Position numbers and translations under genes: made by a program
In this document: positions 7,169-31,655 of the stretch, one piece after another
How positions within the stretch are numbered: position 1 is the stretch's first letter
Layout: the number at the start of each line of letters is the position of its first letter
DNA from: a candidate division WOR-1 bacterium RIFCSPLOWO2_02_FULL_46_20
Lineage (GTDB): Bacteria > Margulisbacteria > WOR-1 > O2-12-FULL-45-9
DNA length: 40,214 nt
Assembly: GCA_001771365.1 (NCBI GenBank)
Contig: METP01000007.1
Coordinates: 1 to 40,214, forward strand
Direction of reading: 5' to 3'
The notes under the pieces: generated by a model
The model's database searches: none
Seen by the model: the letters and a program-made list of their open reading frames with translations, nothing else
What the model was told of the DNA's origin: nothing

Positions 7169-8224
7169 ATGAACGAAAACGATATTAGAAATTTTGCTAC
7201 AATCAAGGTTTTCGGCATAGGTGGCGGCGGCACAAACGCGGTAAACCGCATGATTGGCGCCGGCGTCAAAGGGGTGGAATTTTGGGGTGTAAATACCGAC
7301 CTGCAGGCTTTATCTGTTTCTCTGGCCGATCATAAATTGCAGTTGGGCGAAAAATTAACCAAGGGTTTAGGCACGGGGGCTAATCCGGAGGTCGGGCAAA
7401 AGGCAGCCGAAGAGTCACGAGAAGATATCAAGCTGGCCCTGGAAGGTTCGGATATGATCTTTTTAACGGCCGGCATGGGTGGAGGCACGGGGACCGGGGC
7501 CTCTCCGATTATTGCTGAAATTGCCAAAGAGCTTGGTTGCCTGACTGTGGCTGTTGTTACCAAGCCATTTCGTTTTGAGGGCCCGGTTAGGATTTCTCAA
7601 GCTGAGACCGGTGTAGCTTTACTTAAAGAAAAAGTCGACGCCCTAATTGTTATTCCCAACGACAAGTTGCTGCATGTGGTAGAAAGAAAAACCTCGATTA
7701 TTGAAGCTTTTAAAATTGCCGACGATGTGCTGAGGCAGGGGGTCAAAGGGATCTCTGATCTAATCACTGTCCCGGGCTTGATCAATCTCGACTTCGCTGA
7801 TGTCAGGACTATTATGTATGAAGCCGGCTCGGCCATGATGGGGATTGGGACAGGATCGGGCGAAAACCGGGCGGTCGAAGCGGCCGAATCGGCGATTTCT
7901 TCTCCTCTTCTGGAAGAGACAATTACCGGAGCCAAAGGTGTTATCTTTAATGTCACCGGCGGGTCTGATCTGACCCTTTATGAAGTCAATGAAGCGGCTG
8001 AAGTTATTTACAATGCCGTTGATCCGGATGCCAATATTATTTTTGGCGCGGTGATCGACGAAAAATTGCAAGGCGATATAGTGGTCACGGTCATTGCTAC
8101 CGGGTTTAGACCATCTCCAAAAAAAGAGATAGAAAATTTGCCCTTCTTGCGTCCGCGTACCGCGCGCGCCCCATCATCTTTAAACAATAAGGAAAACATC
8201 GAACTGCCGTCGTTTATGAAGTAG
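7169..8224 (+). CDS. ftsZ: Cell division protein FtsZ
   Basis: [33 protein letters not shown] tubulin signature, C-terminal tail peptide NIELPSFMK. Confidence 0.98.
8162..8223. repeat. 62-bp direct repeat, copy A (3' end of ftsZ)
   Basis: 60/62 identical to 12003..12064; mismatches at 8172 (C/T) and 8212 (G/A). Confidence 0.97.
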
Positions 8225-8371: not shown

Positions 8372-8497
8372 GTGAATAATACTTCTTCAGGGACAGAAAA
8401 CAATTCTCTAATTATTAAACACAAAAAGGGCTTTATTATGAGAATAAATTCTCTGATAGGCCGGAGTCAGCATGAAATCAACAGATATTATAGATAA
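8372..8497 (+). CDS. Small ORF (GTG start, 41 aa), possible leader coupled to the methyltransferase gene
   Basis: SD-like aaaggggggtgacctcaa before GTG; overlaps the next start (8472) by 26 nt in another frame. Confidence 0.4.
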   Translation: MNNTSSGTENNSLIIKHKKGFIMRINSLIGRSQHEINRYYR

Positions 8498-9509
8498 AAA
8501 CTTTAGGGAGGTTACATATGACCTAAAAGAATTATATTGCCGCCTCAGCGACGAGATATTATCGCATGAAAATGAAAAGCGTGGTGGTCCCGGGGAATAT
8601 AATGCTGTTGTCTATTCAAAGGCAAAAGAGAACTTCTCCTCCTTAAAACATCTTTATAATAAAACATGGGAATTGCTTGTCGGCCAGGGACTTGAGGATC
8701 AAATCAACCCTCTTCATCAGCTTTATCGGTCGTTTTTCCAGAAAGAGATTCATGCTTTTTTTCTTGTTAGCCCTTTTTGCCGGCGGGTTTTTCAAAAGCC
8801 ACTGGGATATGCCGGCGATTTTCGAATGTTGAAGTATATCTACGATGATCAGCTTGAAGGGGAAAATCTTTTTGCCAAGCTTATTCATTATTTCTCGATA
8901 AATCTTGAAATAGCCCAAGCGGTGAAAAATAGAAAAAATTACATTCTTTCAAAGATTGCAGGACAGAGAAAAGACGCGGACTTTTCTTTCATGAGCGTTG
9001 CTTCCGGCCCCGCAGTCGAAGTAGTCGAGTTAATGAAGGATAACAGCTCTATGAACGGCAGCATCCATTTATTGGACAGCGAGATCCAAGCGCTCAAGTC
9101 TGTCAAAGGGCAGATTAACAATGAAGTCTTAAAGAAGAAAAAAATCAGCTTGATCTGTCATCACAATTCTATTTATGATATTATTAAAAATCGTATGGAC
9201 GTCAAGAAGCAGAATTTAATTTATACTACCGGCTTATTTGATTATTTGTCGGATAGGATAGCTTCCAGGTTGATTGACGATCTTTTTTCTCTGCTTAAAA
9301 CTAATGGGGTATTGATCATAGGGAACTTAAAACATACGGGAAAGGTTTTGCGTGCTTACATGGAACTACTTGGAGAATGGTTCCTGAATTATCGGAATGA
9401 GGAGCAGTTGTTGGGCTTGGCCCACAATGTTGCTGATAAGGCCAAGATTTCGATTGAGAGGGATTCTACGGGCATTCAGCTTTTTCTGCTGATAGAAAAG
9501 ATGGGATGA
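8472..9509 (+). CDS. SAM-dependent methyltransferase resembling PhcB / EF 3-hydroxypalmitic acid methyl ester biosynthesis family
   Basis: KPLGYAGDFRMLKYIYDDQLEGENLFAKLIHYF motif; FMSVASGPAVEVVELM (SAM motif I-like); late motif LLKTNGVLIIGNLKH. Confidence 0.68.
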   Translation: MKSTDIIDKNFREVTYDLKELYCRLSDEILSHENEKRGGPGEYNAVVYSKAKENFSSLKHLYNKTWELLVGQGLEDQINPLHQLYRSFFQKEIHAFFLVSPFCRRVFQKPLGYAGDFRMLKYIYDDQLEGENLFAKLIHYFSINLEIAQAVKNRKNYILSKIAGQRKDADFSFMSVASGPAVEVVELMKDNSSMNGSIHLLDSEIQALKSVKGQINNEVLKKKKISLICHHNSIYDIIKNRMDVKKQNLIYTTGLFDYLSDRIASRLIDDLFSLLKTNGVLIIGNLKHTGKVLRAYMELLGEWFLNYRNEEQLLGLAHNVADKAKISIERDSTGIQLFLLIEKMG

Positions 9510-11380
9510 ATTATTTCGCTTTCACCGGTTTGCTCAACGGATTGACCAGTCTTTCTCTTGGCGTATATTCTCTGGCGAGGGGCTACAGAAGCCAGTTGAA
9601 CAGGTCGTACTCTTTATTCGCTTTCAGCGTTTTCTGGTGGAGTTGCGGCTATTTCTTTTGGCAGCTTTCTGCAACTTCAGAAGGCGCGCTGTTCTGGTCG
9701 AGATTCTTCATGTCGGGAGCCATCTTTATCCCGGCGACTTATTTTAATTTCTCGCTCAGGTTGACTAATAAATATCATGAAAAACGATGGCAAAGTCTGC
9801 TATCTTATCTCATCTGTTTTGTTTTTCTTGTCTTGAATTTTACCCCGCTGATCGTGGCGGGTGTATCAAAGAAGCTGTTTTTCGACTTCTGGCCTTTGCC
9901 GGGATTATTTTACATGCCGTTTCTGGCGATGTTCTTTTACTACGTTATTTATTCGCTGTTCATCATGTATTCGGTTTTCAATCAAGCAAGCGGGCACCTC
10001 AAAACGCAGATTATGTATGTTTTTCTTGGCACAATGATTGGCTTTGTCGGCGGTTCGACCAATTATTTACTTTGGTATGACATCCCGATCCCTCCTATCG
10101 CCAACATACTGGTTGTGGCCTATCCTTTATTTCTTGCTTACGCCATCACCAAGCATGAATTCATGGACATTCGGGTTGAGATCAGCCGTTCCGCCGCCTA
10201 TGGTTTTGTCGGCCTTTTGATCATTGCTTCTTTTATCGTATTGAGCCTAGTGCCGCTGCCGGCCGCTTTGGTTGTATTTGCCAACGCTCTGCTGGCGCTT
10301 ATCTGGGCGTTTGCCGCGCACCGTCTGCGCGACATTATCCAAACTCCGCTGGAAGAAAAATGGATCACCGGCTGGTATAACTCCGATAGATTGATTAATC
10401 AGATTGCCACAAAATTAATCCCGGTTATAGAGAAAAAAGACGTTTACAGAATTGTTGCAGATGAGCTCAAATCGGCTATTAAGATCAAAAACATTGAAGT
10501 TATTACTGGAAGGCCGCAGGTTGATTATCATGGCTTAACCCAAACAAAGAATGGCTTGGTAATGCCGTTTTCTTCTTCTGACGGGGTAGAGGGGGCTCTG
10601 ATCCTGGGACAAAAAACATCTGAAGATCCGTATACTGAACGGGATATGACTATATTCAAAACAATAATGATCCAGTGTATGGCGATTCTCGATCGTATTC
10701 GCCCGTACGAACAAATTAAAAAAGAGCTGGATCGCTCGCAGCGTTTAGCTTCTCTGGGCACCATAACCGCTGGGGTGGCTCATGAAATCAGGAATCCATT
10801 AGGGATCATTCATTCAAAAACACAGAGACTCCTGGATAAACCAAGAGATTTGGAATACTTAAGACAATTTCAAAACGATGTCCTGGAAAACTCAAGACGC
10901 ATCACAAAAATTATCAGGGGAATGCAAAGTTTGTCAAAGGTGAAGGAGAAAAAAGAGGTCAAGGTGAACTTGAACGATTTAATAGAAGCGACTTTGGCAT
11001 TGATCCCTATAAGTCGTATAAGTTTGAAAAAAGGACTTGCCCCTGTTTCCGATATTATGGCCGATCCTGATGAGCTGAAACAGGTATTTATTAATCTGAT
11101 CAGTAACGCTATCGAAGCTATGCCCGAAAGCGGGGAGTTAACCATTTCCACCAGCCAGGAAGGCACGAATGTTACGGTCCAATTTTCCGATACCGGCCAC
11201 GGGATAGCGCCGGAAAATATCCATCGGATTTTTGACCCATTTTTCAGCACCCGCCACGAAGGGGCAGGCTTAGGCCTTTCGATCGCCCATCGTATTGTCG
11301 TAGAGAACAACGGGAGTATAGATGTAAAAAGTAAAGTGGGAGAGGGGACCACCTTTATTCTAAAATTTCCTGCGCTTTAA
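9506..11380 (+). CDS. Membrane sensor histidine kinase with multi-TM (7TM-like) N-terminus
   Basis: About 7-8 hydrophobic segments, then HisKA GTITAGVAHEIRNPLGIIHSK and HATPase NLISNAIEAMP, GAGLGLSIAHRIV. Confidence 0.92.
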   Translation: MNYFAFTGLLNGLTSLSLGVYSLARGYRSQLNRSYSLFAFSVFWWSCGYFFWQLSATSEGALFWSRFFMSGAIFIPATYFNFSLRLTNKYHEKRWQSLLSYLICFVFLVLNFTPLIVAGVSKKLFFDFWPLPGLFYMPFLAMFFYYVIYSLFIMYSVFNQASGHLKTQIMYVFLGTMIGFVGGSTNYLLWYDIPIPPIANILVVAYPLFLAYAITKHEFMDIRVEISRSAAYGFVGLLIIASFIVLSLVPLPAALVVFANALLALIWAFAAHRLRDIIQTPLEEKWITGWYNSDRLINQIATKLIPVIEKKDVYRIVADELKSAIKIKNIEVITGRPQVDYHGLTQTKNGLVMPFSSSDGVEGALILGQKTSEDPYTERDMTIFKTIMIQCMAILDRIRPYEQIKKELDRSQRLASLGTITAGVAHEIRNPLGIIHSKTQRLLDKPRDLEYLRQFQNDVLENSRRITKIIRGMQSLSKVKEKKEVKVNLNDLIEATLALIPISRISLKKGLAPVSDIMADPDELKQVFINLISNAIEAMPESGELTISTSQEGTNVTVQFSDTGHGIAPENIHRIFDPFFSTRHEGAGLGLSIAHRIVVENNGSIDVKSKVGEGTTFILKFPAL

Positions 11381-11859
11381 CCTTGATCCTTTTTAAAGCC
11401 TGTTTCTCTTTTTTCGATATGCTTCTCAAAGGTTTCTAGAACTAATTTCCCCTCTTCTTTTAGACCCTGGCAGAATCGGTCTATCGTACCTATCAAATTG
11501 TCGCGCTCATAGGGTTTGGTAATGTAGTTAATCACAAAGCCATTGGTGGCTTTTTCCCATTTCTCTTCATCTTCCCAGGCAGTCAGCATAATAATTCCGA
11601 TATCCGGACCGTACTCTTTTCTAACCTTTTCCAGAAATTGCAAACCGTCCATCCCCGGCATTTTTATGTCCAGCACGATCACGCGAACGCGATTGCCGCC
11701 CAGTCCGAACATAATCTTATTGTTCTTAAGATATTCTAAGGCTTCCATGGCGGAATAGGCGGTTGCCGTAGCATATCTTTCGGTTTCAGAAATTACCGTC
11801 GTGATTTCGTCGGCATAATTTCGCTCGTCGTCAACTATCAAAATTAGAGGTTTTTCCAT
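11377..11859 (-). CDS. Response regulator (CheY-like receiver plus short C-terminal helix)
   Basis: LIVDDERNYADE, VIVLDIKMPGMDG, MLTAWED, ITKPYE; convergent 4-nt overlap with the HK. Confidence 0.92.
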   Translation of the reverse strand: MEKPLILIVDDERNYADEITTVISETERYATATAYSAMEALEYLKNNKIMFGLGGNRVRVIVLDIKMPGMDGLQFLEKVRKEYGPDIGIIMLTAWEDEEKWEKATNGFVINYITKPYERDNLIGTIDRFCQGLKEEGKLVLETFEKHIEKRETGFKKDQG

Positions 11860-11993: not shown

Positions 11994-12065
11994 ATGGGAA
12001 AAGCGCGCGCCCTATCATCTTTAAACAATAAGGAAAACATCGAACTGCCGTCATTTATGAAGTAA
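11994..12065 (+). other. Micro-ORF encoding an FtsZ C-terminal tail copy: [23 protein letters not shown]
   Basis: ATG to TAA, in frame with the duplicated ftsZ 3' end; no clear SD. Confidence 0.5.
12003..12064. repeat. 62-bp direct repeat, copy B (duplicated ftsZ 3' end)
   Basis: 60/62 identical to 8162..8223, offset 3841 bp. Confidence 0.97.
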
Positions 12066-12113: not shown

Positions 12114-12119
12114 TACCTA

Positions 12120-12136
12120 TTGATAATGATTATCAA
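12120..12136. promoter_or_regulatory. Fur box over the fur transcription start region
   Basis: TTGATAAT-G-ATTATCAA, perfect 8-1-8 palindrome, 7 nt after the -10. Confidence 0.85.
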
Positions 12137-12166
12137 TATCATAAGTGTCATAAGGCCAGGTAAGAA

Positions 12167-12604: not shown

Positions 12605-12632
12605 CAGAAAGGAGGTTTTTTTCTGCATCGTT

Positions 12633-12651
12633 AATGATAATGACTATCATT
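12633..12651. promoter_or_regulatory. Fur box upstream of the feoB operon
   Basis: AATGATA-ATGAC-TATCATT, near-consensus Fur palindrome. Confidence 0.82.
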
Positions 12652-12697
12652 ACCACTAAAGTCCGCGACAGATTATGTTTAAGGAGGATCGGGGAAG

Positions 12698-15650: not shown

Positions 15651-16031
15651 TCATTTGGAGTTTATGAGCTCTTTGATCTTTGCCAGCAGCTCTTCAGCTT
15701 TAAAAGGCTTGGTAATGTAAGCGTCGGCACCCACTTCTTTGCCCCGCTCAATATCGGTTTTTTGGACTTTAGCACTCAAAATGATAATGAGAATGCTTTT
15801 GTGCTTCTCGTCAAATTTGAGCATGCGGCAAAGGTTAAAACCATCCAACTTTGGCAGCATAACGTCCAGGATGATCAAGTCCGGGTTTTCCGTGCGGGCT
15901 TTACTTAAACCCTCCATGCCATCATGGGCCAATATGATGTCGAAGTTGTTGGCTTCTAATCTCAAACGGATAGCCTCGGCCATGTCTTGGTCGTCTTCAA
16001 TTAAAAGAATGCGTGTTTTTTTATTGTCCAT
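15651..16031 (-). CDS. Response regulator (single receiver domain)
   Basis: RILLIEDDQDMAEAIRLRLEANN, LIILDVMLPKLDGF, ILSAKVQKTD, ITKPFKAEELL. Confidence 0.93.
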   Translation of the reverse strand: MDNKKTRILLIEDDQDMAEAIRLRLEANNFDIILAHDGMEGLSKARTENPDLIILDVMLPKLDGFNLCRMLKFDEKHKSILIIILSAKVQKTDIERGKEVGADAYITKPFKAEELLAKIKELINSK

Positions 16032-17382
16032 TGGATTTTATTTTTGGGAGGCTAAAGGTAAATGTGCTTCCCCTGTCGATTTCGCTTTCAAACGAGATTA
16101 TACCGTTATGCATTTCAACGATGCCCTTGCAGATAGACAGGCCAAGCCCCGCTCCCCTGGAGAGCGTTTCGTGTCCGGTCCCGATATGGACAAAGCGCTC
16201 AAACACTTTTGGAAAATCTTCCCTGGCAATGCCTTCTCCGTTATCTTTGATATAAGTCCGGATTTCTTTTTTCGCCTCTTCTATGCCGACAATTATTTTC
16301 CCGTCCTGGCCGGTGTGTTTGATCGCGTTGTCTATTAAATTGACAAAAACACGCAGGATTTGCTCCGGGTCAATCCAGAGCATTGCTTCTTTCGGGAAAG
16401 TTGTTTCAAGCGTAACGCTTTTATGCTCAGCTTTTGGTTTTAATAATTCAACGGCTTTCCGGCCAAGTTGCGTTATGTCTGTGGTTTGGCAGCGCAGATC
16501 CAGGGAATGAGACTCAATTTTCGCAATATCAAGCAGGTTGTCTAAGATCTTGGCCAGGCGATCAATATTGGCGCGAGAGGTTTCCAGGAGCTTTTTTTGT
16601 TTTGGGCCAATTGTGCCAACTATGCCGTCTTCTATTAATGATAAATTTTCTCTCACAACTGAAAGGGGTGTTCTTAATTCGTGAGAAGCAGTCGAGACAA
16701 ACTCATCTTTCATCCGGTCAATGGCTTTTATTCTGGTTAAGGCGGCCAGGAATTTTCTGTTTTTTATGAAAAGTTCTTCGTGTTGTTCGTTGAGCAGTTT
16801 AGAAAAATAGTAAATGGTTGTGGCAAACAGGAAAAACGCCACACTGGTAAAAATAGCTTTGTTATAGATGGAAATAAGCAGTTGGTCCGGAGTCAGGCTA
16901 AAGCTGGTTCCATAGATAGGCAGGATGCCGAGATAGGCAGAAAGAAGCAGCCCCAAATAAAAAACAGCTGAGAAAAAAGCAATTAAAAATACGGCAAAAG
17001 AATAGTAAGAAAACATGCCAAAGCCCGAAACAATGATCATGACTAAATATAAAAACCAGTAGGGGCTTTCTACCCAGCCGGTGATATAGATCAAAAAGGT
17101 TATCGCGGCAATATCAAAAAACTGAAAAACCCCCGCCGCGGCGACTGCTTGCCAGAGCTTATATTCTTTCTTTAGTGCATATATGAGGTTGGCCGCTATG
17201 TTGTAAAGGCCAACGGAGATAATTAGCTCCAGGCTAAGGGGGGCATAGGCATTGCCGGTGTGCGAAAAGTAGATTAGAAATAAACCCAAGAAGACAAACG
17301 CGTAACGAAAGCCAATAGCCCAGGAAATTTTATTTTTTAAGTCTTCGATCTGTAAATAAACTTCGCGTTTCTGGTAAGTCAT
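16021..17382 (-). CDS. Membrane sensor histidine kinase
   Basis: About 6 TM segments, DEFVSTASHELRTPLSVVRENLSLIEDG, NLIDNAIKHTGQDG, GAGLGLSICKGIVEMH. Confidence 0.93.
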   Translation of the reverse strand: MTYQKREVYLQIEDLKNKISWAIGFRYAFVFLGLFLIYFSHTGNAYAPLSLELIISVGLYNIAANLIYALKKEYKLWQAVAAAGVFQFFDIAAITFLIYITGWVESPYWFLYLVMIIVSGFGMFSYYSFAVFLIAFFSAVFYLGLLLSAYLGILPIYGTSFSLTPDQLLISIYNKAIFTSVAFFLFATTIYYFSKLLNEQHEELFIKNRKFLAALTRIKAIDRMKDEFVSTASHELRTPLSVVRENLSLIEDGIVGTIGPKQKKLLETSRANIDRLAKILDNLLDIAKIESHSLDLRCQTTDITQLGRKAVELLKPKAEHKSVTLETTFPKEAMLWIDPEQILRVFVNLIDNAIKHTGQDGKIIVGIEEAKKEIRTYIKDNGEGIAREDFPKVFERFVHIGTGHETLSRGAGLGLSICKGIVEMHNGIISFESEIDRGSTFTFSLPKIKSNGQ

Positions 17383-26682: not shown

Positions 26683-27735
26683 ATGGCAGCAGAAATAAAA
26701 GAATTATTAAAAGAGATGGTCGAGGCTAAGGCCTCGGATCTAATCCTGGAAGCCAATGCTCCGATGGCCTTGAGGATCGGCGGGCAGCTAAGGTTTATGA
26801 AACAGGTTTATAACGCCGCTGAGATCGGGGTACTGCTAACCTCAATTCTCAATCCTACCCAAAAGATACGCCTGGAGAATGAGAAACAGCTTGATTGCTC
26901 GTACGAGCTGGTTTCGGGGGAGCGTTTTAGGGTTAACCTGCATTTTCAGAAGGGAAGTTTGGCCGCGGCGATAAGAGCGGTACCAAAGGTTGTCCCCAGT
27001 CGGCAGGAACTGCGCTTGCCCGAAGTAATCGAAGAATTAGTCAAACTGCAGAATGGTTTAATTATTGTGACAGGTCCGACAGGCTCGGGTAAAACCACTA
27101 CCCAGGCTTGCATGGTTGATATGATCAATCAACAAAGGGCGGCGCATATTCTGACAATTGAAGATCCGATTGAGTATATTATTGAAAATAAGAAGAGCCT
27201 GATTGAACAAAGAGAAGTAGGAACCGACGCGATAGATTTTCCCGGCGCTCTGCGCGCGGCGCTGCGCGAAAACCCTAATGTGATTCTTATTGGAGAGATG
27301 CGTGATTTAGAAACTATTTCTACCGCGATTACCGCGGCCGAAACAGGGCATTTGGTGATTTCTACTTTACATACCAGTGGGGTGGTTAACGCTGTTGATC
27401 GTATTATTGATGTTTTTCCGGCTCATCAGCAGAATCAAGTGCGCAGCCAGCTGTCTTTGACGCTAAGGGCGATCCTGGCTCAGGAGCTTATCCCTAGAAA
27501 AGACAAAAAAGGGGTAATCGCTGCGGTGGAAGTGCTGATCGGTGTTCCTGCCATCAGAAACGTAATTCGTAAAGCGCAGACTCATGAGATCCCTACGTTA
27601 ATTGAGGTTGGCAAAAAATATGGGATGCAGACGATGTCTGAGGCCATGCTCCAGCTTCTCCGCAAAGGGCTAATCGAATTAGACGAGGCGTTGTCCCGGG
27701 TCCCCGACCCCGACGCCTTTAGAAAGAGAATATGA
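26683..27735 (+). CDS. pilT: Twitching motility retraction ATPase PilT
   Basis: ASDLILEANAPMALRIGGQL, GPTGSGKTTTQACMVDMINQ, GEMRDLETISTAITAAETGHLVISTLHT. Confidence 0.95.
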   Translation: MAAEIKELLKEMVEAKASDLILEANAPMALRIGGQLRFMKQVYNAAEIGVLLTSILNPTQKIRLENEKQLDCSYELVSGERFRVNLHFQKGSLAAAIRAVPKVVPSRQELRLPEVIEELVKLQNGLIIVTGPTGSGKTTTQACMVDMINQQRAAHILTIEDPIEYIIENKKSLIEQREVGTDAIDFPGALRAALRENPNVILIGEMRDLETISTAITAAETGHLVISTLHTSGVVNAVDRIIDVFPAHQQNQVRSQLSLTLRAILAQELIPRKDKKGVIAAVEVLIGVPAIRNVIRKAQTHEIPTLIEVGKKYGMQTMSEAMLQLLRKGLIELDEALSRVPDPDAFRKRI

Positions 27736-28094
27736 CGAAAAAGAAAATTTTACTTATTGATGACGAAAAAGACATCATTGATATGGTAAAAATACGTTTG
27801 GGCGTTAGCGGATCATATGAAGTTACCACAACGTATTCCGGGCAAGCGGGGGTCGATCAGGCAAATAGCCAGGACTTTGATCTGGTGATAACCGATTACA
27901 ATATGCCGGACCTGAACGGAGAAGAAGTTATAGACGCAATCAAAAAAGTAAAGCCCGATTTGCCGCTCTTCTTATTCTCTATTTATTACGATGACGATGA
28001 AACAATCAGTCCGGCCATCCGCGCTAAAGTTGATGGACTGGTGCGCAAACCCATTGATTACGCGCAATTAAATGAGATGATAAATAACCTATAA
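27732..28094 (+). CDS. Response regulator (receiver only)
   Basis: ILLIDDEKDIIDMVKIRL, LVITDYNMPDLNG, RKPIDY. Confidence 0.92.
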   Translation: MTKKKILLIDDEKDIIDMVKIRLGVSGSYEVTTTYSGQAGVDQANSQDFDLVITDYNMPDLNGEEVIDAIKKVKPDLPLFLFSIYYDDDETISPAIRAKVDGLVRKPIDYAQLNEMINNL

Positions 28095-28112
28095 AGCCAG
28101 GGGGAGATTAAA

Positions 28113-28514
28113 ATGCCGGAGCAGACGATAAAAATTTTACTGGTTGAAGACGAACCCGATTATAATAATATGGCCGAGTATATGTTAAAGAAAATGGCTG
28201 AGGCAATTAAATTGACTTACGCGCTTGACCTTGCTTCCGCCATTGTCCAGGTTAAACAGGGTGGGTTTGATATTATTTTGCTCGATCTCAACCTGCCGGA
28301 TTCAAAAGGTCTTGATACGGTGCGTGGTATGGTTAAGGGAGCCTCCGGCATCCCCATTGTTGTGCTGACCGCGACGAATGACGATAAAGTCGGCGTGGCG
28401 GCAGTTAAGGCCGGAGCCCAGGATTATTTGGTTAAAGGCGACTATGATTCCAGGTTGTTGCACCAGACTATCCGCCATGCAATGGCCCGCACCTCTCCAC
28501 ACCGTAATGAGTGA
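28113..28514 (+). CDS. Response regulator (receiver only)
   Basis: ILLVEDEPDYNNMAEYML, IILLDLNLPDSKGLDTV, LTATNDD, YLVKGDYD. Confidence 0.92.
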   Translation: MPEQTIKILLVEDEPDYNNMAEYMLKKMAEAIKLTYALDLASAIVQVKQGGFDIILLDLNLPDSKGLDTVRGMVKGASGIPIVVLTATNDDKVGVAAVKAGAQDYLVKGDYDSRLLHQTIRHAMARTSPHRNE

Positions 28515-30129
28515 TAAGCAGCCGGCATTCCGGCCAAAACTTAACCAGTCTTGGTTTACAATCTTAATTATTACTTTGTTGATCTTTGCCGTCGAATTTT
28601 TGATTATGTTGCCGCTAAGAAATCTTTCGCCTTTTACAGATGATTTCTTTGACGCACTCTTAAATGCCGCACTTTTAATCATTTTTATTTTGCCTTTTTT
28701 ATATCAATTTCTGTTTCGCCCTCTTGTTTCACAGTTCAAAGAGCTGCAAGCTGTCCGGCAGTTTGATGAGGCCTTGCTGCGGGCGATCCCTTTTCCTATT
28801 GACATTGTTGATGCAACGGGGGGCATCCTTTATCTTAACGATAAGATGAAAGAGCTGGTGGGGGACAATGTCCTGGGCAGCAAGTGCTGGGACAATTATA
28901 GAGATAACAAAGAACAATGTCCGCACTGCCCCTTGTTCACAGGAATAAAGACAGGGGAAACAGTGGACATTGAAATAGGCGATTATTTTGGAGGCAAGAC
29001 CATGAGAATTTTCCACACGGGGATGGTCTTTCAAGGAAAAAATGCTGTGCTGGAAATTTTTATGGACATTACGGAGCGTAACAAAGCTGCGAAGCTTATT
29101 GATGAGCTGGCCAAGTTCCCCGCAGAAAATCCTCTGCCGGTTATGCGGGTTTCCACAGAAGGCATTCTTCTATATGCCAATCGGGCCTGCAAATCCATTA
29201 TGGCTGGCTGGTGTAGCGAGGGAAACCCTGTACCGAATGTTTTAAAAGAAAAAATTTACAGCGCGCTTAAGACCAAACAGCCTCTTGAGTCGGAGTATCA
29301 AACTAATGGGCGGGTGTTTCTCTATTACATTGTTCCGCTAGTCGAGCAGGGCTATGTTAACTTATACGGCTCTGATATTACGGAACGCAAAAAGATCGAC
29401 CTCCTGAAAACAGAGTTTGTTTCTACCGTGTCCCATGAATTGCGCACCCCCCTGGCTCTTATTAAGGAAGGTGTTTCCATAGTGCTTGATGGACTTTACG
29501 GGAAAATAAATAAGGACCAAAAGAAGCTCCTGTCAATCGCCAAAAGCAATGTTGACCGCCTGGCGCGCATCATCAACGAGCTCCTGGATATTTCCAAGAT
29601 TGAGGCGCATCGCGTCGAACTTAACAGAAGCCAGGTTGATATCTGCGCGGTTGCGGCCAGGATCATTGAGCAGATGCGGGGGCAGGCTGAAGAAAGCGAC
29701 ATTAACCTGACCCTTAAGGCTTTTCCCCAGGCCGTTGAGCTGTCTGCTGATTCTGACAGGCTTGAAGAAGTTTTTATAAATTTATTTTCAAATGCTATCA
29801 AGTTTACCCCGAAAAATGGTACAATCTCTGTGGAAATTGTAGATAAGGACAGTCTGGTCGAGGTCAGCGTGGCTGATACCGGCCGGGGGATCAGCGAAGC
29901 TGATTTGCCGAGGGTCTTTTCCAAATTTGAGCAGTTTGGCCGTACCCCGGGGCCGGGGATAAAAGGGACAGGATTAGGGCTATCAATTGTTAAAGGGTTA
30001 ATTGAGCTACATGGCGGAAATATCCGGGTCGAATCGCAGCCTGGCAAGGGAACAAAATTTATTTTTACTTTGCCCAAGGCAGAGGGGGCCAAAGATGGAC
30101 AAGACAGAAAAAAAACAGCAGGCAGTTAG
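28507..30129 (+). CDS. PAS-containing membrane histidine kinase
   Basis: ATG 28507 overlapping preceding stop; two TM, PAS-like regions, TEFVSTVSHELRTPLALIKEGVSIVLDG, GTGLGLSIVKGLIELHGG. Confidence 0.92.
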   Translation: MSDKQPAFRPKLNQSWFTILIITLLIFAVEFLIMLPLRNLSPFTDDFFDALLNAALLIIFILPFLYQFLFRPLVSQFKELQAVRQFDEALLRAIPFPIDIVDATGGILYLNDKMKELVGDNVLGSKCWDNYRDNKEQCPHCPLFTGIKTGETVDIEIGDYFGGKTMRIFHTGMVFQGKNAVLEIFMDITERNKAAKLIDELAKFPAENPLPVMRVSTEGILLYANRACKSIMAGWCSEGNPVPNVLKEKIYSALKTKQPLESEYQTNGRVFLYYIVPLVEQGYVNLYGSDITERKKIDLLKTEFVSTVSHELRTPLALIKEGVSIVLDGLYGKINKDQKKLLSIAKSNVDRLARIINELLDISKIEAHRVELNRSQVDICAVAARIIEQMRGQAEESDINLTLKAFPQAVELSADSDRLEEVFINLFSNAIKFTPKNGTISVEIVDKDSLVEVSVADTGRGISEADLPRVFSKFEQFGRTPGPGIKGTGLGLSIVKGLIELHGGNIRVESQPGKGTKFIFTLPKAEGAKDGQDRKKTAGS

Positions 30130-31300
30130 GGACCACGAATTAAACGGCCTGGCTTCCGAGTTTATCTCGACAGTGTCGCATGAGCTGCGCACACCCTTAA
30201 CCATTATCAAAGAAGGCCTGTCCCAGGTTTCGGAAGAACTGCTGGGCCCGGTGACCGAAAAACAACAGCGCGCCCTGCGCTTGTCATTAAAATCCATTGA
30301 TCGGCTGACCCGCCTGGTTAATGAACTGCTGGATGTTTCCCGCCTGGAGAGGGGCAAACTAAAATTAAAGAAAGAAAATTTTGATATTTTAAGCTTAACC
30401 GAAGACGTTTTTAAGGGTTTTGAAGCTGTGGCCAAAAAGGAAAACAAGATATTCTCTTATGAGGTAACGACAGACAGAAAAGAACTGCTTATTTTTGGCG
30501 ACGCGGATAAATTCACCGAGGTTTTGATCAACCTGATCCAGAACGCCCTGAAATTCACCGGGCCGGGCGACGCGATTAAAGTTGGCGTTACCGATAATGC
30601 CAGGAGTGTTAGGCTTGTTGTTTACGATGACGGCAAAGGCATACCAGCAGAAGAGCTGCCGTTAATTTTTAATAAATTCCATCAGATAAAAGGCGGCGAA
30701 GCAGACAAAAGATCTGGCCTGGGGCTGGGGTTGTCAATTGCCGCGCAGATCGTTAAGCTGCACGGCGGCAATATTTCCGTCGAAAGCAAAGTGGGCAAGG
30801 GTTCCGAGTTTATTATTGAGCTGCCCCTGGCGATTCCGTGTTTGAGCCAGCTGGTTAAGGTATGCAAAAGGGAACGCCTGAGCCAGGACGAGATCCAGGG
30901 GTTAACTGATTACGGCGTGGTCAGGGTCTTGATTGAAGCGATCGTCTTCCCGGGTTTTGATGTTGACGAAAAAGAACAGGTGCTCCAGTCCATCCAGAGC
31001 ATGAATTTACTGGCCGGCACCCTGCCCAGCGCCTGGTCCCACATAGAAGATTTTACCCGCATTGATGTCAAGGATAAAAAAGGCCGGAGCTTAAAGGCCG
31101 TTAATTATAAAGAGGCTTTTTACATGGCTTATGTGGAAAAAAACATGGGTGATTTTAAGTATCAAGGCAAGGCAATTTACAAGTTTGGCAGCACCGAGCA
31201 AAAACGCCGCGCCTTAATGGCATTTGTCAAAGGGCTCTCCGGCAAGCAGCTCGACGCCATGATTGACCTGATTCAAAAAAGGAGGATACAATATGTCTAA
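30095..31300 (+). CDS. Soluble histidine kinase with ~150-aa uncharacterised C-terminal extension
   Basis: ATG 30095 (MDKTEKKQQAVRDHELNGLASEFISTVSHELRTPLTIIKEG); HATPase GLGLGLSIAAQIVKLHGG; no sensor region. Confidence 0.9.
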   Translation: MDKTEKKQQAVRDHELNGLASEFISTVSHELRTPLTIIKEGLSQVSEELLGPVTEKQQRALRLSLKSIDRLTRLVNELLDVSRLERGKLKLKKENFDILSLTEDVFKGFEAVAKKENKIFSYEVTTDRKELLIFGDADKFTEVLINLIQNALKFTGPGDAIKVGVTDNARSVRLVVYDDGKGIPAEELPLIFNKFHQIKGGEADKRSGLGLGLSIAAQIVKLHGGNISVESKVGKGSEFIIELPLAIPCLSQLVKVCKRERLSQDEIQGLTDYGVVRVLIEAIVFPGFDVDEKEQVLQSIQSMNLLAGTLPSAWSHIEDFTRIDVKDKKGRSLKAVNYKEAFYMAYVEKNMGDFKYQGKAIYKFGSTEQKRRALMAFVKGLSGKQLDAMIDLIQKRRIQYV

Positions 31301-31655
31301 AATTTTAATTATCGACGATGAAAAAGACCTGGTGGAGATGATGACTATGCGCTTGACAGCCATGGGTTATGACATAGTCGGCGCCGGCAACGGCGAAGAG
31401 GGCATAAGCCTGGCCAGGCAGGCAGCGCCTGATTTGATCCTCCTGGATATCATGATGCCGGGCATTGACGGCTATGAGACCTTAAAAAGGCTTAAACAAG
31501 AGGCCAAGACCAAGGCTATCCCGGTGGTCATGTTAACGGCAGTTGGCAAGCCTGATGCCGTCAGCCGCTCACTGGAGGGCGGGGCCAGTGACTATATCTC
31601 CAAACCATTTGAGCCCAAGACCCTGCTGGAAAAAATTAGAAAGGCATTAAAATAA
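31293..31655 (+). CDS. Response regulator (receiver only)
   Basis: ILIIDDEKDLVEMMTMRLTAMGYD, LILLDIMMPGIDGYE, MLTAVGK, ISKPFEPKTLL. Confidence 0.94.
   Translation: MSKILIIDDEKDLVEMMTMRLTAMGYDIVGAGNGEEGISLARQAAPDLILLDIMMPGIDGYETLKRLKQEAKTKAIPVVMLTAVGKPDAVSRSLEGGASDYISKPFEPKTLLEKIRKALK

Follow-up and report, generated by a model that had tools for sequence, protein, structure and literature searches.

A candidate lipid-signal module of a PhcB-family methyltransferase, a HisKA_7TM histidine kinase and a receiver-only regulator in a WOR-1 bacterium

Introduction

Lipid-based quorum sensing in which the synthase gene lies beside the gene of its receptor kinase has been described in a few proteobacteria, and the locus described here raises the question of whether this design also occurs among small-genome, uncultured relatives of Cyanobacteria. 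The DNA studied was contig METP01000007.1, positions 1-40,214, of assembly GCA_001771365.1 (WOR-1 bacterium RIFCSPLOWO2_02_FULL_46_20), and this whole stretch of 40,214 nucleotides is referred to as the window. It was found to contain a methyltransferase gene coupled through an ATGA to the gene of a sensor histidine kinase, followed by a convergent response regulator gene (Table 1), with coordinates and frames as given by an earlier sequence-only reading, in which the three genes were taken for a possible PhcB/PhcS/PhcR-like module. With a probability of roughly 0.58, they are predicted to form a self-contained, horizontally acquired lipid-signal module in which an ester made by the methyltransferase would be sensed by the kinase and relayed to the regulator. 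The module is Phc/Lqs-like in kind and not Phc by membership.

Results

The methyltransferase

The methyltransferase was not named by Pfam, NCBIfam, PHROGs or single-sequence PDB searches. Homologues of the protein (METHYLTRANSFERASE) were found in 11 of the 143 relatives searched, its own genome counted. Seventeen divergent homologues were aligned and were found to contain a conserved K-P-x-G-Y-x-G-D core followed by R154, a glycine-rich S-adenosylmethionine (SAM) motif, D202 and a G-L-F-D-Y-L block. The residues P110, G112, D116, R154, G179, D257, Y258 and R308 were listed as invariant, and some core positions were nearly, not strictly, invariant. The conservation of this core identifies the motif noticed in the sequence-only reading as the signature of the family.

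The SVASGPAVEV region, D202 and the conserved glycine-rich motif are features of class I SAM-dependent enzymes. An AlphaFold model made from a shallow alignment (pLDDT 62.5 overall and 60-90 in the Rossmann part) had the class I methyltransferase fold, and 934 PDB matches at E<=0.001 were obtained with it, the top ones being methyltransferases; the structural check proposed earlier thus gave a Rossmann methyltransferase with SAM-site residues. When the PDB was searched by sequence with the family profile, the best match was CheR (9.5e-7). Like CheR, another of the best matches, juvenile hormone acid O-methyltransferase (JHAMT), methylates carboxyl groups.

The best E-value among 72,556 plasmid records (8e-33) was obtained for a 468-aa protein of Paraburkholderia graminis, and the homologues in these records came only from Paraburkholderia or from more distant sources. 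The two proteins were 30% identical over 277 aa (pairwise E 1e-40), the reference being this PhcB-like protein of P. graminis and not Ralstonia RSc2735, and the assignment of the enzyme to the PhcB family was borne out by this homology. In a scan of contigs, the closest named match, the one match returned, was a metagenome-assembled genome (MAG) of 'Candidatus Saganbacteria'. The closest methyltransferase was found in another family of the class (genome G027, 44%), the homologue of the same-family genome G001 being 32% identical.

Linkage of the methyltransferase to histidine kinases

A histidine kinase gene was found to be adjacent in 13 of the 14 methyltransferase loci from whole genomes. 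Overall, linkage to a sensor kinase and a regulator was seen in many lineages, a phcBSRQ-like operon among them. The exception, G118, contained a Fic-like gene on one side of the methyltransferase and the contig end on the other. Chance co-location of the two genes was ruled out by this adjacency, and the genome survey of their co-occurrence that the sequence-only reading had called for agrees with it. The ATGA overlap was also present in G001, G045a and G027b, and the convergent regulator in G001, G029, G050b and G027b. A conjugative plasmid of Pseudanabaena was found to contain the methyltransferase, a convergent kinase and a response regulator next to a Tn3-family transposase. At the locus of the nearest methyltransferase relative (L020 609-3404, G027), the kinase was split by a frameshift, its HATPase domain was undetected, and the regulator was divergent, not convergent.

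Other family members were found beside enzymes of different kinds. In Rhizobium and Roseateles (L082, L084, L086, L087) they were divergently paired with EAL or GGDEF-EAL genes, a possible link to cyclic-di-GMP. A Deinococcus plasmid (L083 1392-4750) contained, in a row, a fatty acid desaturase, a FeeM N-acyl amino acid synthase, a second methyltransferase and the PhcB-family methyltransferase, a candidate acyl amino acid ester pathway, and the Enterobacter member forms the C-terminal end of a type I polyketide synthase. From these neighbours, the family appears to live in signalling and acyl-chain contexts. On a phage contig of IMG/VR (L081 2455-3357), the PhcB-family methyltransferase lay between terminase-like and portal-like genes.

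The kinase and regulator beside other acyl enzymes

The kinase of the window was found to contain HisKA_7TM (2.7e-14), HisKA (7.8e-9) and HATPase_c (3.1e-27) domains and a weak GAF match in Pfam, and it passed the curated cut-offs (PF16927, 54 bits; HisKA, 35.9; HATPase_c, 95.7) as a HisKA_7TM histidine kinase. The regulator contained a Response_reg domain (2.3e-22) and was receiver only. The host genome, a MAG of 1.37 Mb in 70 contigs and 86% complete, contained four further proteins matching HisKA_7TM (PF16927) and two close paralogues of the regulator, 63% and 55% identical to it. One of these paralogues, on contig 49, precedes a 404-aa thioester-reductase-like protein (NAD_binding_4, 3.8e-28), followed by a 145-aa hotdog thioesterase and a 680-aa HisKA_7TM kinase. 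On contig 31 (L089, 1-1019), the end of a closely related kinase overlapped a convergent regulator 63% identical to that of the module, and the synthase side was lost at the contig end.

The sibling module on contig 49 led to a survey of 56 further PF16927 loci within the phylum, in which a recurrent layout was found, an enzyme gene followed by the 7TM kinase and a convergent regulator of about 160 aa. Counted as the immediate upstream co-directional gene of the kinase, a thioester reductase was present at six loci (at one fused to an aminotransferase), a LuxD-type thioesterase, also termed acyltransferase, fused to a methyltransferase at three, a long-chain acyl-ACP-reductase-like protein at three (PDB 6jzu, 2.5e-5) and a hotdog thioesterase at two. 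An alpha-oxoamine synthase was present at one locus (L104, G015; serine palmitoyltransferase 1e-94, CAI-1 synthase 3.5e-36), as were KAS II and KAS III at one locus each. Fifty genes downstream of these kinases, taken as controls, contained RecO, sigma-54 regulators, tRNA synthetases and others, with none of the acyl families found upstream among the 25 commonest listed. By homology, the upstream acyl families were counted in 18 of 37 against 5 of 279, a count that is partly circular because the upstream genes had themselves supplied the family names; the Pfam control and newly found LuxD loci were relied on instead. These loci, G010 and G012, were obtained from a class search with the LuxD-methyltransferase protein alone, and in both, LuxD and the methyltransferase are separate genes, a 7TM kinase comes next, and a 156-aa regulator is convergent with it.

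The occurrence of several acyl-handling enzymes with the same kinase and regulator pair strengthens the lipid-signal reading, and it suggests that the relatives retain receptor and regulator and swap the fatty-acid enzymes, as a new exchangeable lipid-signalling family. A kinase with two tandem HisKA_7TM regions followed by GAF and PAS was also observed (L091 2785-6072), and, with open reading frames (ORFs) of about 1,090 aa in many relatives, it is apparently class-wide.

Sensor region and candidate ligand

When the sensor regions were placed on a tree, the labels of the upstream enzymes were clustered, with 14 changes against a shuffled mean of 22.8 (0 of 200 shuffles as low). The window kinase was separate from most other methyltransferase-linked kinases and grouped with those of the LuxD-methyltransferase loci (fork 94/95). 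Its 7TM region (residues 1-230) was 60-67% identical to those of the three kinases behind the LuxD-methyltransferase fusions (G006, G018, G023), followed by 43-44% for the next best. Over the next 170 residues, identity was 67% with the kinase that follows the alpha-oxoamine synthase, against 25-32% with the LuxD group. Since the sensor and the middle region match different lineages, the window kinase is a mosaic with an exchanged sensor.

The first enzyme domain of the fusion matched the LuxD myristoyl-ACP thioesterase 1THT (2.3e-21) and the second matched JHAMT (4.1e-7), and the fusion is therefore read as releasing a fatty acid and then methylating its carboxyl group. No relationship was detectable between the methyltransferase of the fusion and that of the window. 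Thus fatty acid methyl esters would be made by two unrelated kinds of enzyme in front of the same sensor type, which is the strongest indirect evidence on the ligand, and these non-homologous routes before similar sensors make the ligand prediction directly testable. We know of no ligand for the HisKA_7TM sensor, and the mentions of PF16927 found in the open-access literature were only for archaeal or eukaryotic kinases. For this orphan sensor, acyl derivatives, fatty acid methyl esters among them, would become a class of candidate ligands.

Comparison with known systems

The P. graminis locus was found to contain the 468-aa PhcB-like gene followed by a 445-aa kinase, a 134-aa regulator and a 344-aa regulator, which is the phcB-phcS-phcR-phcQ order. 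Its kinase carries the phospho-His at 233, against 230 in Ralstonia PhcS (PMC11960443). Its PhcB-like protein also has Arg at position 22, the residue of PhcB that was mutated in GMI1000-derived symbionts in a study stating homologues for Paraburkholderia (PMC6989110), and the distance between the phcB and phcS starts is 1408 bp, against 1417 bp in Ralstonia as computed from mutation coordinates (PMC6989110). On gene order, phospho-His, Arg22 and start distance, the operon was equated with phcBSRQ.

The window shares with PhcBSRQ a homologous methyltransferase whose gene lies directly before that of a membrane kinase, and a receiver-only regulator without a DNA-binding domain. It differs in that its methyltransferase does not have the PhcB N-terminal extension of about 110 aa (345 against 468 aa), its kinase contains HisKA_7TM and a GAF-like linker instead of a PhcS-type sensor, and a single convergent receiver-only regulator stands in place of co-transcribed PhcR (with a kinase domain) and PhcQ. 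Between the window kinase and the PhcS-like kinase the kinase core alone was found to align (29%), the sensor domains being without sequence similarity, and the receiver was 30-32% identical to the P. graminis regulators. As for a LysR-type (PhcA-like) regulator, no LysR_substrate match was found in the 86%-complete genome, the controls being positive in 10 of 14. Membership of PhcBSRQ was rejected on the sensor domain, the N-terminal extension, the regulator set and the LysR regulator. Of the PhcB/PhcS/PhcR-like module proposed earlier, the methyltransferase homology, the linkage to kinase and regulator and the lipid-signal kind were retained, and the membership was not.

LqsA-LqsS-LqsR of Legionella and CqsA-CqsS of Vibrio resemble the module in the logic of a synthase, a multi-transmembrane kinase and a regulator. 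The genes lqsS and lqsR are also convergent (PMC3376566). The alpha-oxoamine synthase of the G015 sibling module is related to CqsA. Unlike these systems, the window has a methyltransferase as its putative synthase, not an autoinducer synthase dependent on pyridoxal phosphate, and the likeness of its kinase and regulator to LqsS and LqsR is one of logic. The likeness to the Vibrio lux system lies in the LuxD-type thioesterase domain of the sibling modules. There the partners of this domain, whether fused to it or encoded next to it, are a methyltransferase and a sensor kinase in place of luciferase, and no LuxD domain occurs in the window.

Origin of the module

The module sits between ftsZ and fur/feoB and is flanked by two 62-bp direct repeats, identical at 60 of 62 positions, which are the sole two full copies in the genome. 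A partial third copy of 37 bp was observed at G000:C66:6362-6398. In G002, feoB was found directly after ftsZ, and in G009 ftsZ was followed by two other genes, fur and feoB. The G+C content was 41.7% in the module (39.3% in the methyltransferase) and 45.9% in the window outside it, and no integrase was present. Simple vertical inheritance was rejected because most same-family genomes do not contain the module, the closest methyltransferase is that of G027 in another family, and the repeats form a scar. A phage origin was raised because of the phage contig L081, and no phage genes were found to flank the window module. The module was likely acquired horizontally by recombination and inserted behind ftsZ with duplication of the 62-bp ftsZ tail.

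Discussion

In the proposed mechanism, the methyltransferase and the receptor kinase would be made together via translational coupling. With SAM as the donor, the methyltransferase may add a methyl group to the carboxyl of a fatty-acyl substrate that is either free or bound to a carrier, and the product would be a membrane-permeant methyl ester. The 7TM sensor could detect the ester in or from the membrane and alter autophosphorylation at His426, followed by phosphate transfer to the receiver-only regulator. PhcR/PhcQ and LqsR are thought to act by protein contact or phosphorelay, and the regulator of the window may act likewise. If secreted, the ester could serve as an extracellular, quorum-sensing signal. 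The window module would then be one of a wider phylum set in which one type of kinase and regulator is fed by exchangeable acyl-handling synthases.

Several observations weigh against this lipid-signal reading. Some family methyltransferases were found to partner other kinases, a soluble cNMP-binding one (cyclic nucleotide monophosphate; G050a) and a PAS hybrid one (G094), EAL or GGDEF proteins partner further members, and in G118 and on phage contig L081 no kinase was seen. Some module-type kinases had non-lipid neighbours (DUF362, class V aminotransferase, HAD, radical SAM), and others had unknown ones. No transcription factor or target of the regulator was identified, the product, its secretion and a density response are inferred from sequence, and the similarity to CheR would fit protein methylation equally.

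This last point leads to an explanation in which the methyltransferase is a CheR-like adaptation enzyme whose substrate is the linked kinase or some other membrane protein, the sensitivity of which it adjusts by methylation, with no diffusible lipid. It accords with CheR as the best PDB match of the profile and with a methyltransferase that stays constant while the kinase sensors vary, one of them being soluble. It was nevertheless considered distinctly improbable: PhcB, the characterised relative, makes small lipid esters, namely 3-hydroxy fatty acid methyl esters (PMC10653808, PMC8578825), the same receptor type stands behind unrelated acyl enzymes incapable of protein methylation (reductases, thioesterases, ketoacyl synthases, alpha-oxoamine synthase), and the window sensor tracks a thioesterase-methyltransferase fusion. 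Self-sensing of the membrane or fatty-acid status, with enzymes that adjust the lipid pool and a 7TM kinase that reads this pool in the same cell, would explain the diverse acyl enzymes beside one kinase type and would suit a small genome (1.37 Mb) with no exporter, LysR or acyl-homoserine-lactone-type parts seen beside the genes. This too is unlikely, as one small synthase gene is tightly coupled to one receptor in the manner of CqsA/CqsS, LqsA/LqsS and PhcB/PhcS, unlike bulk lipid homeostasis, and the synthases differ from genome to genome. A genuine PhcBSR system whose sensor has diverged, making 3-hydroxypalmitic or 3-hydroxymyristic acid methyl ester and acting via a PhcA-like regulator, was judged highly improbable in spite of the methyltransferase homology, the gene order of methyltransferase and kinase and a receiver-only regulator like PhcQ, since the dissimilar sensor domains, the missing N-terminal extension and the lack of a LysR_substrate protein in the genome all speak against it, as does the finding of the nearest sensors in LuxD-methyltransferase modules from its own class.

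With the lipid-signal module as the preferred reading, the evidence from sequence points to the synthase-beside-receptor design also in small-genome uncultured relatives of Cyanobacteria, in which receptor and regulator stay and the signal enzyme is swapped. It is proposed, tentatively, that Saganbacteria/Margulisbacteria may possess a phylum-wide lipid autoinducer family of one 7TM-kinase/receiver pair with interchangeable synthases, the sensors recombining with the synthase, of which Phc and Lqs/Cqs would be the proteobacterial counterparts. No description of exchangeable acyl-signal synthases before one receptor family was found in a narrow search of the open literature.

Features of the locus

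The coordinates are collected in Table 1. The reading frames of the methyltransferase and the kinase share the ATGA at 9506-9509, and the stops of the kinase and the regulator overlap by 4 bp.

Table 1. Features of the module, its flanks and the sibling module (window positions unless another contig is named)
Feature	Position	Strand	Remark
ftsZ	7169-8224	+	Upstream of the module
62-bp direct repeat, copy 1	8162..8223	+	Final ftsZ codons with the stop; 97% identity to copy 2
Class I SAM-dependent methyltransferase, PhcB family, 345 aa	8472..9509	+	ORF, family alignment, fold
KPLGYAGD motif of the methyltransferase	residues 109-116
Sensor histidine kinase, 624 aa	9506..11380	+	ATGA-coupled to the methyltransferase; Pfam domains
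HisKA_7TM sensor region of the kinase	9539..10171	+	Pfam, sensor comparison
HisKA (phospho-His 426) and HATPase_c core of the kinase	10757..11374	+	Pfam, alignment
Receiver-only response regulator, 160 aa	11377..11859	-	ORF, Pfam; convergent with the kinase gene
62-bp direct repeat, copy 2	12003..12064	+	Orphan ftsZ tail at the far boundary of the insertion, shortly upstream of fur
fur	starts 12167		3' of repeat copy 2
Sibling module L088 (G000 contig 49)	3871-8288		Regulator, thioester reductase, hotdog thioesterase, 7TM kinase

No Rfam elements were found in the window. Fur-box-like palindromic repeats were observed at 12118-12141, before fur, and at 12632-12655, before feoB. More kinase and receiver genes were found in the window at 15651-17382 and 27732-31655, by similarity to the kinase core and the regulator of the module.

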